NCBI RefSeq assembly: GCF_028747785.1
Contig: NZ_CP118158.1
Coordinates: 4,402,001-4,466,000, forward strand
Reading direction: 5' to 3'
Source of the DNA: Halosimplex aquaticum
GTDB taxonomy: Archaea; Halobacteriota; Halobacteria; Halobacteriales; Haloarculaceae
Length of the DNA stretch: 64,000 nucleotides
Positions 5,319 through 57,216 of the stretch are shown piece after piece. A program made the translations under genes and the position numbers. Below the pieces are notes generated by a model. It did no database searches. It saw only the letters and a program-made list of their open reading frames with translations, and had not been told where the DNA came from. Positions within the stretch are counted from its first letter, which is position 1. Every line of letters begins with the position of its first letter.

Positions 5319-5399
5319 GTGTGCCCGTAGCCGACTCGCGGGGTTAGCCGTTCCGGTCGAACCCGTAAGCCCGCCGGCCAGATCGCCGCAGCCGCGGTC

Positions 5400-5774
5400 T
5401 CACTCCCTTCCGTCCCGGAACTGTCGATACTCGCGGACGCCGTAGACGAACGCGGCGACGCCGAGGACGAACAGGGGACCGCCGGTGTCCCAGTCGCTCC
5501 TGAAGAAGACGAACATCGGGCCGAGCGACATCGCGAGCAGCGCGACGTCGAAGACGAGGACGAGCCGCCAGAACGTCCGCGAGACCTCCGGATCGACGTC
5601 TCCGTCCAGTGCGCCGGCGTCCGCCTCGTCGGTCTCACCGGCGTCGGCGGCTCCTGGCACGGACGGGATATCGACTTCCGGCACGTCCACCTCGGGGACG
5701 TCGGGGCCGAGCGACGATTCGAACCGCTCGGCGCCGCCCAGCAGGCCGTCGTCCTCGTCCGCGTCGTTCGACAC
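5400..5774 (-). CDS. Small two-helix membrane protein
   Basis: I chose the internal GTG at 5774, giving about 124 residues beginning VSNDADEDD. The 47 codons upstream are Arg-rich and coincide with a decayed repeat, so they are unlikely to be translated. The N-terminal half is acidic and low complexity (VPEVDVPEVDIPSVP). The C-terminal half has two hydrophobic helices (LVLVFDVALLAMSLGPMFVFF and PLFVLGVAAFVYGV) after the motif RTFWRL. It resembles a haloarchaeal membrane family of unknown function, perhaps DUF7322 from memory. It lies in the same orientation as the winged-helix gene downstream. Confidence 0.65.
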   Translation of the reverse strand: MSNDADEDDGLLGGAERFESSLGPDVPEVDVPEVDIPSVPGAADAGETDEADAGALDGDVDPEVSRTFWRLVLVFDVALLAMSLGPMFVFFRSDWDTGGPLFVLGVAAFVYGVREYRQFRDGRE

Positions 5775-49240: not shown

Positions 49241-49674
49241 GAGCGCAGTTCTGCGAGGAACGGACGTGACGAGCGAGCCGCTGGTGGGATTCGTTTCACG
49301 CGGGTCGCAGCCGCAGAACGGTGTGAGTGTCGCCGTCGAGTCCACGTCCGACAGCGTGTGTGAATTATGACAGCATCTGAGATTTATAAGGGGTCGAACG
49401 TCGCGCCGAGAATCGAGATCGATATTCGGGTCAAAGTTCACGGGTGGTTTCGGCGGTCTCGCCGCGAGTAACTGGAAATTACCGTCGGCCGACGGCGTCG
49501 TCGGAGTGCGTGCGTTCGATACGGGTAAGGATGCCCCACTGAGCCGCGTGTGGAACAGGGTGACACAATGAGGGGGCTATCGACGGCGTTCCCGGGAATT
49601 GCCTCGGCTTACGGATCGCGACCTGCCACTGGGCGGAGGATAACAAAGTGTATCTCGCCCCTTTCCTCGGTCGC
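49241..49674. other. 434-bp region between tRNA-Gly hairpins and the DUF4397 gene
   Basis: GATTTATAAGG near 49380-49390 is a good TATA box on the plus strand, yet the next convincing start is ~285 bases further, so a non-coding transcript or long leader is possible. A perfect palindrome CCGTCGGCCGACGG lies at about 49482-49495. I see no SRP, RNase P or riboswitch core. A minus-strand ORF (49151-49441) runs through the tRNA and is spurious. Confidence 0.45.
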
Positions 49675-51171
49675 ATGACTTACGATAAATACACAAAAGC
49701 GATAGTCGGAGCCGTAGCGCTGACACTCGTCGTGAGTACGCTCGCGATGAGCGGCGCTGCGTCGTTCTCCGCACAGCAAGACGACACACAGACGAGCACG
49801 CAGACGCAGGAGACCTCGTACGTTCGGATCGCCCACCTGTCGCCGGACGCGCCGGCAGTCAACGTGACGCTGGGTAACCAGACGGTCGCGTCGAACGTCG
49901 AGTTCGGCAACGTGACCGAGTACATGAACGTCACCGCGGGCACGTACAACGTGAGCATCACTCCCGTGGGACAGCCGACGAACGCGATCTTCGAGGGGAA
50001 CGTGACCATCGAGCCGCGAGTGGTCGCGACGATCGCCGCCAGCGGTGAGTTCTCCTCGGAGTCCATGACGGACTTCGAACCGGCGACCTTCGAGGACAAC
50101 GCCTGGAAGCCGAGCGACGACATGGCGGCAGTGAGTATCGTCAACCTCTCGCCGGACGTGGGTTCGGTCGACGTCGTCGTCACCGAGGGGCCGTCCGACG
50201 GACAGACCGGCGAAGAGACGGAGACCGAGACCGACGTGGTCGGCGAAGAGACCGAGACGGAGACCGAGACTGACGTCGGTGTCGGCAACGAGACCGGGAC
50301 GGAGACTGACGTCGGTGTCGGCAACGAGACCGAGACTGAGACGGAAACTGACGTCGGCATGGGTAACGAGACGGAAACCGCGACAGACGAGGGAATGTTC
50401 CTCGCAGCGCAGGAGGAGACGGACACGGAGACCGAGACCGACGACGGCCTCGGCAACGAGACCGAGACGGAGACTGACGTCGGTGTCGGCAACGAGACCG
50501 AGACGGAGACTGACGTCGGTGTCGGCAACGAGACCGAGACGGAAACTGAGACGGACGTGGTCGGTACCGAAACCGAGACCGAAACTGAGACCGACATGGT
50601 CGGTAACGAGACCGAGACCGATATGGACGAGCAGCTGACCCTCGCCCAGAACGTCACGTTCCGGAACGCTTCGGAGTACATGAACGTCCCGGCCGGTGAC
50701 TACACGCTCGAGATCCGCTCGAACGAGACGGGCGAGACGCTCGCCACCGTCGACCTCTCCGTCGAGGGCGGCAACGCGTACACGGCGTTCCTCGCCGGGT
50801 ACCAGTACCCCGACGAAGCGCCCGCGGGCGCCTCGTTCCAGCTGATCACCGTTCAGGACGCGACGAAGTCTGTCACGCTCCCGACCGTGGAAGCGGGCGC
50901 GGAGACCGAGACCGGAACCGAGACTGACGTGGTCGGCGAAGAGACCGAGACGGAGACCGAGACCGACGTCGGCATCGGTAACGAGACCGAAACCGAGACG
51001 GAAACTGACGTCGGCATCGGCAACGAGACCGAGACCGCGACCGACGACGGCCTCGGCACGGAGACCGAGACGGAAACTGACGTCGGTATCGGCACCGAAA
51101 CCGAGACGGAGACCGACGACGGGCTTGGTGTCGAAACGGAGACGGACACCGCCACCGAAGCCGGCGCATAG
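49675..51171 (+). CDS. Secreted DUF4397-domain protein with Thr/Glu repeat arrays
   Basis: The ATG at 49675 gives 498 residues, starting MTYDKYTKAIVGAVALTLVV, a signal sequence. A first DUF4397 domain covers about 45-155 (YVRIAHLSPDAPAVNVTLG). A second begins with AAVSIVNLSPDVGSVDVVV, is interrupted at ~178-322 by repeats of the form ETETETDVGVGN, and resumes at LAQNVTFRNASEYMNVPAGDYTLEI. A second repeat array (~410-497) ends the protein. NxT sequons are frequent, so glycosylation is likely. The pattern suggests a cell-surface or pilus-like protein with flexible acidic spacers; function is unknown. Confidence 0.8.
   Translation: MTYDKYTKAIVGAVALTLVVSTLAMSGAASFSAQQDDTQTSTQTQETSYVRIAHLSPDAPAVNVTLGNQTVASNVEFGNVTEYMNVTAGTYNVSITPVGQPTNAIFEGNVTIEPRVVATIAASGEFSSESMTDFEPATFEDNAWKPSDDMAAVSIVNLSPDVGSVDVVVTEGPSDGQTGEETETETDVVGEETETETETDVGVGNETGTETDVGVGNETETETETDVGMGNETETATDEGMFLAAQEETDTETETDDGLGNETETETDVGVGNETETETDVGVGNETETETETDVVGTETETETETDMVGNETETDMDEQLTLAQNVTFRNASEYMNVPAGDYTLEIRSNETGETLATVDLSVEGGNAYTAFLAGYQYPDEAPAGASFQLITVQDATKSVTLPTVEAGAETETGTETDVVGEETETETETDVGIGNETETETETDVGIGNETETATDDGLGTETETETDVGIGTETETETDDGLGVETETDTATEAGA
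50203..50640 (+). repeat. Degenerate Thr/Glu/Asp coding repeat, first array
   Basis: Tandem units of roughly 33-60 bases encode ETETETDVGVGNE-like peptides, rich in GAGAC(C/G)GAGAC. One interruption (GMFLAAQEE, near 50395) splits the array. Units share high nucleotide identity, pointing to expansion by slippage or unequal exchange. Confidence 0.75.
50900..51168 (+). repeat. Degenerate Thr/Glu/Asp coding repeat, C-terminal array
   Basis: The same kind of unit (ETETETDVGIGNE, TETETDDGLG) runs to the end of the coding region. It is similar to the first array (50203-50640), consistent with shared origin or exchange between them. Confidence 0.75.
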
Positions 51172-54893: not shown

Positions 54894-55607
54894 TCAGATG
54901 AAGTCGTCGACGCTCGGGCCGCCGGCCGAATCGCTGTCCTCGTGTTCGGTCCCGCCGGCCATCAGCGTCAGCGGGTTGCGCGTCTGGAGCCAGACGTGCC
55001 CCTCGCCGGAGAGTTCGGTCACGAAGCCCTCGCCGCCCAGCATCGTCGACTTGATGCTCCCGTCTTTCCGGCGGTCCATCGACAGCCCGTCGGTCCAGGC
55101 CACGAGGTGATCCTCGTCGACCGTCAGCGGCTCCTCCGGCGTCACCTCCTTCTCGTACATCGACCCGTACGAGGAGACGAAGGCCATCCCCTGCCCCGAA
55201 ATGCCCAGCACCGTCAGCTCGCCCGACGAGAACAGGTTCGACCGGTTGTTCATCTCCGTCGACCGCTCCACCAGCGGCTCCCAGGCCAGCAGCGACCCCG
55301 ACTGGGACTTGATCGGTCCCTGCTCGGTGACGTTGATCGCCGTGATGTCGCCCGGGTGGTCCGGCACCAGCGTCACCTCGGCGTCGTCGGCCACCGCGTA
55401 GTACTTGTTCTCGACTAACCCCCGCTCGTCGCTGATCGCCCGCTTCGCCATCCCCATCACGCCGTCGTCGCCGCCGATGCTCGTCTCGTTCTCGATTCCC
55501 GCCGACTGGGTCATCATCGCGCCCGGCTTCGTCTCGATCTCCTCACCCTCCGCGAGACCCACTTCCAGCACCGCGTAACTCGGTCGCTTGTCGATCGTGT
55601 AGCGCAT
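54894..55607 (-). CDS. AIM24/TIGR00266-family protein
   Basis: I use ATG 55607 (MRYTIDKRPSYAVLEV), giving 237 residues; a TATA box at 55634-55646 lies ~27-39 bases upstream, and GGTGAG directly precedes this ATG. The upstream ATG at 55628 would add seven residues. The beta-helix-like family is shown by GAMMTQSAGIENETSIGGDDG, AEVTLVPDHPGDITAINV and GSLLAWEPLVE. Its biochemical role is unknown. The C-terminus ends in an acidic tail, PSVDDFI. Confidence 0.88.
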   Translation of the reverse strand: MRYTIDKRPSYAVLEVGLAEGEEIETKPGAMMTQSAGIENETSIGGDDGVMGMAKRAISDERGLVENKYYAVADDAEVTLVPDHPGDITAINVTEQGPIKSQSGSLLAWEPLVERSTEMNNRSNLFSSGELTVLGISGQGMAFVSSYGSMYEKEVTPEEPLTVDEDHLVAWTDGLSMDRRKDGSIKSTMLGGEGFVTELSGEGHVWLQTRNPLTLMAGGTEHEDSDSAGGPSVDDFI

Positions 55608-55633
55608 CTCACCAGGTATGTCTCTCATCCGTT

Positions 55634-55646
55634 ACTTATATCTTGC
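55634..55646 (-). promoter_or_regulatory. TATA box of the AIM24-like gene
   Basis: AGATATAAGTAAC on the minus strand lies 27-39 bases before ATG 55607. It is the only AT-rich block between the gene and the 120-bp repeat array. Confidence 0.6.
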
Positions 55647-55705
55647 TAATGTTTACGTGCAAACGCCACCGTTCGGGCCTGTTGGCCGCGTTCACGGGAC
55701 AATTC

Positions 55706-56054
55706 GCGGGACCGGATCCGAACCGAACGGGGACGGTCGGCCTAACGTCGCTCGCCCGCTGCGACTCCTCGGGTTCGAATCCGTTGGCGATGTTGCGACT
55801 CGTAGTCTGCTCGCAGCAAAAATGCGCGGGACCGGATTTGAACCGGACCCAGACGTGCTCGCTCCCTGTGGTCGCTGTGCGCGACTGGTAGGGTTCAAAT
55901 CCGCTGGCGATTTTACTGCTCGCGGTTTGCTCGCAGCAAAAATGCGCGGGACCGGATTTGAACCGAGTGGAGACGGTCGGCCTCGCTTCGCTCGGCCGCT
56001 GCGACTCCCCGGGTTCAAATCGCGGTCCTGCTCTTCGCTCACTCCGTTCGCTCA
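55706..56054. repeat. 120-bp tandem array carrying tRNA-Leu 3'-end copies
   Basis: GCGGGACCGGATTTGAACC, the reverse complement of the tRNA-Leu 3' end, occurs at 55826 and 55946 and, with two changes, at 55706. The spacing is exactly 120 bases. GGGTTC(G/A)AATC recurs at 55771, 55891 and 56011, also exactly 120 apart, in the opposite orientation, so each unit can fold on itself. CTGCTCGCAGCAAAAATGC ends the first two units. The fourth copy of the 3'-end sequence is the real tRNA-Leu. No anticodon arm exists in the units, so they are not tRNA genes. ORFs reading MRGTGFEP through them are artefacts. Confidence 0.88.
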
Positions 56055-56138
56055 TGCGCGGGACCGGATTTGAACCGGCGGATCCCTACGGAACAGCGTC
56101 CTAAGCGCTGCGCCTTTTCCTGGCTTGGCTACCCGCGC
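56055..56138 (-). tRNA. tRNA-Leu (TAG)
   Basis: An 84-nt class II tRNA on the minus strand. Acceptor GCGCGGG pairs with CCCGCGC, with discriminator A. The anticodon stem CAGCG/CGCTG encloses CTTAGGA, giving anticodon TAG (Leu). A long variable arm (TTCCGTAGGGATC region) and T-arm CCGG-TTCAAAT-CCGG follow. Its 3' end is next to the 120-bp array, whose units contain the same last ~20 bases. Confidence 0.94.
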
Positions 56139-56178
56139 CCGCTTTCCGCTATCCCCGTCGCGCTCATGAAGGTGTCGC

Positions 56179-57216
56179 TCACGAGTCGCCGACCGCCACC
56201 CCGTGGAACTCGAAGCGGGCGCCGCCGTCAGCCCCCTCTGTCACCTCGACGGTCCAGCCGTGAGCCCGCGCGATCCGTCGGACGCTCACCAGACCGTATC
56301 CGGTCCCGTCGACTGCCGTCGAATACCCCGACTCGAACACCGCTTCCCGCTCTTCCGCCGGGATCCCGCACCCGTCGTCTTCGACGGAGAGGCAGCCGTC
56401 CCCGTCGACGCCGACGCTCACCTCCACCCCGCCGTTCTCGTCACCGATCCCGTGCTCCACCGCGTTGACGAAGAGGTTCTCGAGCAGTTGGGTCAGTCGC
56501 CCGCGGTCGGCCGCGACGGGTCGGTCGTCGCGGACGAACAGCGTCGACTCGCCCGTCGCGACGTGTTCCCAGGCCGAGCGAGCGACCGCGGCGAGCGAGA
56601 CGTACTCGGTGTCGTCGGCCGACGGGTCCGATCCGGTCCTCGCGATCAGGTCGCTCAGCAGTTCGTCCGTCCGGTCGAGCGCCGCGAGGGCGTCGTCGAG
56701 GTGACCGTCGTCGCCCGTCCGGCGGGCCATCTCGATGCGGTGCCTGACCGCGTAGAGCGGATTTCGCAGGTCGTGACCGACGACGCTCGCGAACTCGCCG
56801 ATCTGGTCGGTCTCGGACTGGCGGTACCGCTCGCGCGCCCGCTCCCCCCGGTCGATCGCTCGTTCGACGGCGTCGACGAGCGCCTCGTCAGCTATCGATG
56901 GGACGTACTCCGCGGCGCCCGCCGCGACGGCCCGATGCGCCAGCGATTCGTCCCCCTCGCGTGCGAGTGCGACCACTGCGACGGCCGGATCGGTCTCGCG
57001 GATCGTCTGTATCGCTGCGACTGGGTCCGGACAGCTGTCCGCGTCGACCACCAGACAGTCCGGTCGTCCGGCCGCGACGTCGTCCGCGAGATCGCCGAAA
57101 GCGATCCGTTCGACGGTGAAATCTCTCCGCTGGAACCGCGATTCGGCATCGGCGAAGGCCTCGGTTCGCTCCCCCGGCGCTCCGTCGACCCACGCCACGG
57201 CTCTCTCCCCGTTCAT
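56179..57216 (-). CDS. Receiver-histidine kinase hybrid
   Basis: The 345-residue protein has an N-terminal receiver domain (DCLVVDADSC with Asp58; VAVVALAREGDES) and a C-terminal kinase. The HisKA helix carries FASVVGHDLRNPL with His148. The ATPase domain shows LLENLFVNAVEHG, EDDGCGIPAEERE and GTGYGLVSVRRIA. There is no membrane segment. Such compact receiver-kinase proteins are common in haloarchaea and act as phosphorelay nodes; partners are not adjacent. Confidence 0.92.
   Translation of the reverse strand: MNGERAVAWVDGAPGERTEAFADAESRFQRRDFTVERIAFGDLADDVAAGRPDCLVVDADSCPDPVAAIQTIRETDPAVAVVALAREGDESLAHRAVAAGAAEYVPSIADEALVDAVERAIDRGERARERYRQSETDQIGEFASVVGHDLRNPLYAVRHRIEMARRTGDDGHLDDALAALDRTDELLSDLIARTGSDPSADDTEYVSLAAVARSAWEHVATGESTLFVRDDRPVAADRGRLTQLLENLFVNAVEHGIGDENGGVEVSVGVDGDGCLSVEDDGCGIPAEEREAVFESGYSTAVDGTGYGLVSVRRIARAHGWTVEVTEGADGGARFEFHGVAVGDS

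Follow-up and report, generated by a model that had tools for sequence, protein, structure and literature searches.

Hairpin units carrying tRNA tails recur behind tRNA genes across the haloarchaea and may represent gene-less cassettes

The tandem array behind the tRNA-Leu(TAG) gene of Halosimplex aquaticum seems to be a member of a family that runs through nearly the whole class Halobacteria, rather than a local oddity. Each of its units joins a copy of the tRNA's own 3′ tail to hairpins, and the same arrangement is found behind other tRNA genes, in each case with the tail of the tRNA concerned, which shows that the array is not a product of chance. The family layout reads tRNA positions 1–53, then repeats of T54–N73, a spacer hairpin (HP1), an inverted T-arm box and a second hairpin (HP2), and then a last T54–N73. 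The explanation that we favor, with somewhat less than even confidence, is that gene-less hairpin cassettes occupy tRNA 3′ ends class-wide and are spread by a putative recombinase that would use a site in the T-arm, each cassette restoring the tRNA that it enters.

Results

The array behind tRNA-Leu(TAG)

The window, as we call the 64,000-nucleotide stretch analyzed here, carries the array on its minus strand (Table 1). An initial annotation of this DNA had described three units with exact 120-base spacing and had taken a fourth copy to be the functional tRNA. Two programs confirm this arrangement, locating the copies at 55701, 55821 and 55941 (120 + 120) with the tRNA's own tail 112 further, and both ARAGORN and Rfam call the tRNA-Leu(TAG) gene. 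Read on the minus strand from the tRNA 3′ end, every unit consists of HP1 (33 or 41 nt), a 59-nt segment termed INS that comprises the inverted T-arm box and HP2, and 20 nt copied from the tail of that tRNA. The tRNA portion of each unit, previously put at about 20 bases, is 20 nt long and extends from T54 to N73, and it differs from tRNA-Leu(TAG) by 0, 0 and 2–3 mismatches moving away from the gene. The oppositely oriented T-arm-like box reported earlier is present in each of the three units, and the two arms form one 69-nt hairpin per unit, as seen in the matches of our covariance model, R1. The terminal sequence CTGCTCGCAGCAAAAATGC, said to close two units, is exact in one of them and carries one mismatch in the other.

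Table 1. Coordinates of the tRNA-Leu(TAG) array within the window
Feature	Position	Strand	Evidence and remarks
Functional tRNA-Leu (TAG)	56055..56138	−	ARAGORN; Rfam RF00005, 54.2 bits
tRNA tail T54–A73, the stretch copied into every unit	56055..56074	−	Tail comparison
Unit 1 spacer hairpin HP1	56022..56054	−	TGAGCGAACGGAGTGAGCGAAGAGCAGG type; recurs at the same tRNA in related genomes
Unit 1 INS (inverted T-arm box and covarying hairpin HP2)	55963..56021	−	59 nt
Unit 1 match to model R1	55953-56021		81.0 bits; INS DNA fold z −3.35 / −3.53 (two strands)
Unit 1 tail copy	55943..55962	−	0 mismatches
Unit 2 HP1	55902..55942	−	With T-run (TTTTTGCTGCGAGCA...)
Unit 2 INS	55843..55901	−	59 nt
Unit 2 match to model R1	55833-55901		88.8 bits; INS DNA fold z −3.98 / −4.31
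Unit 2 tail copy	55823..55842	−	0 mismatches
Unit 3 HP1	55782..55822	−	With T-run
Unit 3 INS	55723..55781	−	59 nt; decayed, fold no better than shuffles
Unit 3 match to model R1	55713-55781		63.4 bits; INS DNA fold z 0.34 / 0.17
Unit 3 tail copy	55703..55722	−	2–3 mismatches

The fold is lost in unit 3 and retained in units 1 and 2 (z −3.35 to −4.31). In DNA folding, the sense-strand optimum of unit 2 departs from the consensus fold in its inner part. As RNA, positions 55700–56054 fold far more stably than shuffled sequences (z −5.05, 0 of 100 shuffles), and the structure is strand-specific, with unit 2 scoring 88.8 bits on the tRNA strand versus 26.6 bits on the other. A search of positions 55600–56200 against Rfam at E ≤ 1 returns the tRNA itself as sole match and no known structured-RNA family. 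The MRGTGFEP open reading frame (55618–56073, plus strand) runs antisense to the array and looks spurious, as had been suspected.

Extent of the copy and dimensions of the units

The copies end sharply at N73. Across 161 first copies, which were preselected for at most one mismatch in positions 54–71 so that the first 18 profile positions are conditioned, identity to the tRNA is 0.98 at positions 72–73, 0.58 at the next base and then about 0.38. At the inner edge it is 1.0 at position 53, 0.96 at 52 and 0.35 at 51. G52–G53 is nearly universal in tRNAs, and the inner edge may therefore lie anywhere from 51/52 to 53/54; we describe the copied stretch as T54–N73, 20 nt. Since the copies stop at N73 without CCA, reverse transcription of a mature tRNA was rejected as their origin. 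Weak tRNA specificity is also seen in the flank of the inverted box, where the second base outward agrees in 63% of cases versus 26% for other isotypes (116 units).

For 99 of the 101 tRNAs whose nearest copy is no more than 900 nt away, this first copy starts 70–188 nt behind the tRNA, larger distances being covered solely by the unit-centered counts given below. Copies follow one another at 44–174 nt (46 intervals, in chains with gaps below 220–230 nt). HP1 measures 31–109 nt and INS 35–82 nt in 116 units, which leaves no room for genes. INS lengths group at about 42, 51, 59, 68 and 76, and many HP1 start T-rich.

A covarying hairpin with near-fixed motifs

Of 143 parsed units, 44 distinct ones of the commonest, 59-nt type with at most one box mismatch were aligned (alignment A1). 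The named structure forms in 97.2% of the 924 cells of this alignment, 11 of the 21 pairs have changed on both sides, and 116 cells are doubly changed. The covariation score was reached by 0 of 500 shuffles, and controls in which the partner was slid were 17–46% paired. Within this variable stem some motifs are nearly fixed: among 128 distinct units, GA occupies positions 29–30 in 128 and positions 38–39 in 127, and a T-T mismatch stands at 18/49 in 113. The tandem GA stands opposite GA, and the loops are mostly GNA. In DNA, both GNA triloops and tandem GA pairs form very stable structures. In the same 128 units, G-T and T-G make up 20 of 1408 stem cells (1.4%), and A-C and C-A make up 8 of 1408. 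Such rare G-T pairs favor, but do not establish, a structure at the DNA level. The structured RNA that the initial annotation had considered has the stable RNA fold of the array in its favor and is made less probable by the rare G-T pairs.

The hairpin core alone (model positions 14–53 or 19–48, lacking the T-arm boxes) also matches away from called tRNAs at 25 bits: at L013 in the H. aquaticum genome, at L249 on a Halopiger plasmid and at L250 on a Natrinema plasmid. It is therefore the T-arm boxes and the tail, and not the inner hairpin, that tie the unit to tRNAs. HP2 may be drawn from a wider haloarchaeal stock of GNA-loop hairpins with a core of about 30–40 nt.

Units elsewhere in the Halosimplex genome

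Units stand behind 13 of the 46 chromosomal tRNA genes of this genome (70 Rfam matches minus 24 on contig C3), each carrying that tRNA's own tail; those of the remaining chromosomal tRNA loci that were given to the model showed no strong unit. Nine of the 13 have intact tail copies. In the other four, which include a pair of Arg(CCT) genes (L038, L039), the copy is split by a second insert. Insertions of this second type are about 47–59 nt long, consist of two back-to-back hairpins and split the tail copy after TTCAAATCC, TTCGAATCC or TTCAAATTC; they were seen in L052, L046/L008, L038 and L039 of this genome and in L129, L180, L193, L208 and L154. By eye, a similar insert lies inside a tRNA on a Haloarcula plasmid (L067, ~5331–5450).

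A blastn search of the array against its own genome, the check proposed in the initial annotation, gave 48 matches, and 10 of the 12 loci tested for tRNAs have one. It uncovered units behind eight further tRNA genes (L002–L009), namely tRNA-Met, Asp, Leu(CAA), Ser(TGA), Ser(CGA), Lys(CTT), Ser(GGA) and Arg(CCG), with the own tail in each. Of the remaining four loci, L012 and L006 are one and the same Ser(CGA) gene and L011 matches nothing but tRNA sequence; L010 and L013, both without a tRNA, are matches of 22–23 nt to the common hairpin motif.

Distribution across genomes

The family is concentrated in one class. A strict pattern (inverted box, 32–62 nt, direct box) run over 84,980 species genomes found 58 stretches, 56 titled as haloarchaea and 2 as 'uncultured archaeon'. 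A tRNA lies 5′ on the same strand, 30–364 nt away, in 55 of the 60 pattern units, and the copy differs from that tRNA's tail by 0–2 mismatches in 52 of these 55. Inspected by eye, two of the remaining five follow tRNAs with a truncation on the anticodon side (L103, L106), one belongs to an array preceded by a short piece of tail (L135), and two are located in or at tRNA-Asp genes of the metagenome-assembled genome (MAG) Halobacteriales archaeon QS_4_69_31 (L115, L151). Model R1 has at least one match in 284 of 292 class Halobacteria genomes and in 73 of 77 genera. In a draw across the phylum it matched 31 of 33 class genomes and 1 of 163 others, the latter marginally (E = 6e-4), with 144 match-free genomes assigned outside the class from listing order. 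A blastn search with window positions 55400–56180 found matches in 96 of 96 family genomes, a result that says little alone because the query contains the tRNA itself.

R1 matches came from 160 of 246 loci, and removal of 17 duplicates reduced them from 197 to 180. A called tRNA lies at most 600 nt upstream on the same strand in 170 of the 180, and the tail copies at these 170 show 0–1 mismatches out of 18 in 149 and 0–4 in 165. The other ten were inspected by eye. Three have truncated tRNAs upstream (L103, L158, L189), two belong to an interrupted tRNA-Asp locus (L115), three sit in arrays behind tail fragments (one in L135, two in L165), and one follows a partly masked tRNA (L237). The last, L172, lies on the strand opposite to a nearby tRNA-Phe, a placement that can fit because the unit is palindromic. 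The initial annotation had held that units without a tRNA nearby would speak against a tRNA-derived or integration reading; none of the 180 model matches to full units occurs in this way, whereas the bare hairpin core does (L013, L249 and L250). Its suggestion of a tRNA-derived repeat family is strongly supported, and the family is class-wide.

The own tail was recovered at no more than 3 mismatches for 175 of 265 tRNAs, compared with 5 of 265 for the tail of a random other isotype, in fetched loci that had been selected for matching; of all the counts, just the own-genome one and the genome tallies come close to a census. This own-tail rule and the controls rule out a chance origin of the array.

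At L103, L106/L158 and L189, partial tRNA-Thr or tRNA-Gly genes that start in the anticodon arm directly precede units. These truncated genes are likely the right ends of integrated elements, and the truncation sits upstream of the unit, not at it.

We also considered a virus-borne element and rejected it: blastn against phages gave no match, the strict pattern found nothing in viral contigs, and a looser pattern retrieved a single viral contig (L098) with an AT-rich T-arm palindrome of 23 bits and no tRNA within 600 nt.

Insertions inside tRNA genes

Two loci show the insert within a tRNA gene rather than behind it. By eye, the MAG QS_4_69_31 carries an INS inside the T-arm of a tRNA-Asp gene, just before T54 (L115), and in a Haloarcula halophila plasmid array a unit splits a tRNA, missed by ARAGORN, before T54 (L067). 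The 20-nt tail copy present in arrays is absent from both in-tRNA insertions, and no clear BHB-type intron motif was seen at either by eye. The interrupted gene is the only tRNA-Asp pattern match among the 35 tRNA matches of this MAG; either the assembly lacks an intact gene, or the insert is excised from the RNA.

Decay and apparent turnover of units

Copies deteriorate with distance from the tRNA. Of 89 arrays from the fetched loci that hold at least two copies, 42 have a last copy worse than the first, 3 a better one and 44 an equal one; because the loci are related and the arrays are not phylogenetically independent, the p-value of 9e-10 overstates this decay.

Orthologous Halosimplex loci give a more complex picture. 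The INS of window unit 1 is identical to that of unit 1 in genome G056, genome G013 has a different type of INS in its unit 1, and its unit 2 is the partner of window unit 2. Global alignment finds counterparts of window units 1 and 2 in G056 and G013 and none of window unit 3 in either genome. A similar INS is shared by tRNA-Asp loci that are presumably orthologous, as first unit in L155 and as second unit in L003 and L147. These two comparisons suggest that units come, go and swap hairpins. On gain at the tRNA side alone the ortholog comparison is mixed: an earlier reading of blast output, in which extra units always lay beside the tRNA, was dropped after global alignment, as repeated units misalign in blast.

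Cores at different isotypes are hardly closer within a genome than between genomes (0.754 versus 0.730, only 19 pairs), and within-genome bursts of transposition find no support here. Nearest-neighbor cores share an isotype at a rate of 0.388 versus 0.084 by chance, which indicates much local inheritance. Two of the eight pairs of identical 47-nt cores are at different isotypes.

Discussion

Based on the above data, we propose that these arrays can reasonably be read as the product of serial insertion at the tRNA, and that the inserted entity would be a hairpin cassette. A putative recombinase, possibly of the tyrosine or HUH type, would recognize the hairpin, presumably as single-stranded DNA, and strand exchange would take place in the conserved T-arm/T-loop core. 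The incoming cassette would bring its own 20-nt tail, T54–N73, which would leave the tRNA intact, and the old tail would remain behind as a copy. Mobility of this kind would account for the observed layout, the own-tail rule, the sharp copy end, the covarying hairpin and its near-fixed motifs, the restriction to one class and spread throughout it, the decay with distance, and the clusters of INS lengths. The insertions before T54 inside T-arms (L115, L067), the exchange of INS at unit 1, with one INS in the window and G056 and another type in G013, and the identical cores at different isotypes point in the same direction. Against such cassettes stand the lack of a within-genome burst, the local inheritance indicated by isotype sharing, the mixed ortholog comparison with its unpaired window unit 3, the empty phage searches and the core that occurs without T-arm boxes away from tRNAs. 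It is a further and more tentative step, which we rate as possible, to suppose that the cassettes represent a separate recombination system, near-universal in one archaeal class and distinct from integrons, CRISPR and known transposons, in which T-arms genome-wide would load gene-less single-strand hairpin cassettes, each rebuilding its tRNA, by means of a putative recombinase.

Local copying that needs no dedicated enzyme is the strongest of the rivals, though we regard it as doubtful. Template switching during replication at the T-arm palindrome would produce both tail copies and inverted boxes, complementarity of the arms would be maintained by hairpin repair, and identity of the near copies by gene conversion from the tRNA. 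This would explain why nearest cores share isotype, why identity to the tRNA drops with distance, and why identical or near-identical units recur within arrays (L074, L154, L165); double changes with few G-T and A-C intermediates likewise fit a one-step palindrome correction, and the hairpin core does exist outside tRNA ends. However, related HP2 cores are found at unrelated isotypes and genera, pure palindrome correction would erase the near-fixed GA/GA and T-T mismatches, and almost nothing is found outside the class although T-arms are universal.

It is quite improbable that erosion of integrative elements (proviruses, IGEs) left the units as remnants of their ends, each a fusion of left and right att arms whose cargo was lost. 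The logic of att sites does predict that the copy stops where the tRNA stops, and the serial integration that the initial annotation had envisaged is partly right, in agreement with the sharp N73 end, the tandem arrays and the decayed distal copies. Simple att relics nevertheless leave the conserved hairpin unexplained. With the tRNA 30–364 nt from 55 of the 60 pattern units, no space for cargo is left there, and the remaining five involve truncated or interrupted tRNAs or an array. The truncated tRNAs at L103, L106/L158 and L189 end upstream of the unit. The earlier remark that this is not a standard att layout holds: with a hairpin of conserved pairing and units that have no cargo room, ordinary att duplication is insufficient. 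Moreover, the characterized haloarchaeal SNJ2 att site is described, in the available part of its report, as 14 nt long and free of stem-loops (PMC8371274).

In the least probable of the alternatives, the tRNA trailer would contain a functional RNA or an element controlling transcription, whose sense-strand hairpin and T-runs would serve termination, processing or decay under selection for the fold: the specificity for the tRNA strand, the T-rich start of many HP1 and the stable RNA fold suit it, yet only 13 of 46 chromosomal tRNA genes have a unit, G-U-type cells are rare, a copy of the own tail is unnecessary for trailer function, and distal copies decay.

Known systems share parts of this architecture. 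The attC core consensus is RYYYAAC/GTTRRRY. The core of the tRNA units is instead the T-loop, and unlike integron cassettes the units have no ORFs, HP1 and INS being too short for them, enter at a tRNA and each carry a tRNA tail. The likeness lies in the folded palindromic site conserved in structure, although the fold is not that of attC as such. According to the consulted portion of a study that includes archaeal integrons, integron cassettes also share with the units a tandem array, an imperfect palindrome kept in fold and not in sequence, inverted core boxes, and a fixed entry site, which in the tRNA units is the T-arm (PMC9668308).

Casposon and CRISPR-type insertion resembles the arrays in targeting a tRNA 3′ end, in duplicating a repeat per insertion, in building serial arrays and in keeping the best-preserved copy beside the leader, whose place the tRNA takes here, as far as the accessible text goes (PMC6977970). 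There, the duplication produced by the M. mazei casposase spans 14 bp, of which 4 bp are the end of tRNA-Leu and 10 bp lie downstream (PMC6977970). The tRNA units, unlike casposons, duplicate 20 nt, T54–N73, and nothing downstream, in place of 14–15 bp at the very tRNA 3′ end, and a copy-to-copy spacing of 44–174 nt is too short for a gene, so that no element with cas1 and TIRs lies between copies. The proposed mechanism would work like integron cassette loading or CRISPR-type serial insertion, yet we would file it under neither, because ORFs are absent from the cassettes and casposons duplicate a different stretch.

Small mobile elements of Haloquadratum offer another parallel. In the available sections of PMC3119063, SMR-A is an element of ~110 bp, gene-less and with inverted repeats, that strongly prefers palindromic targets, enters IS605/PATE palindromes and has an 'enigmatic' driver, and SMRs show no target duplication. 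The tRNA units are likewise small, gene-less and built of inverted repeats, and differ from SMR/PATE in their association with tRNA genes and in the 20-nt copy seen in arrays. As with integrative elements at tRNA att sites, a copy of the tRNA 3′ part adjoins the gene, duplicated from an internal point to the tRNA end. Integrase-bearing cargo does not lie between the copies, given the position of the first copy in 99 of 101 cases, and compared with the elements in the literature portions at hand, the hairpin family, the tandem layout and the class-wide spread are found only in the tRNA units, which have no integrase. Within the parts of the open-access literature that were available, the family is undescribed; the nearest statement is a sentence on Haloferax gibbonsii, in which tRNA remnants are directly adjacent to full copies (PMC7921747), and other related sources are PMC9897764, PMC3623002 and PMC7230728.

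If the cassette proposal is true, the tRNA 3′ ends of a whole archaeal class would have been shaped by an undescribed cassette system, and the reading of att sites, tRNA 'fragments' and spurious ORFs in this class would change. Which enzyme, if any, recognizes the hairpins is testable in laboratory haloarchaea. A covarying element matched in 284 of 292 genomes deserves annotation even if one of the duller rivals is correct.

Additional observations

Units also accompany plasmid-borne tRNA-Gly and tRNA-Val genes in Natronorubrum bangense. Contig C3 of the H. aquaticum assembly (156,772 bp), a secondary replicon with 24 Rfam tRNA matches, carries two near-alike tRNA gene arrays at ~6.5–9.3 kb and 116–119 kb (L064, L065), which resemble a stretch of 23 tRNAs on a plasmid of Haloarcula halophila, where PolB and TROVE-domain genes lie alongside. 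Elsewhere in the window, the ORF at 49648–51171 contains long in-frame repeats (ETET..., period 36–168 nt) at 50248–51151.
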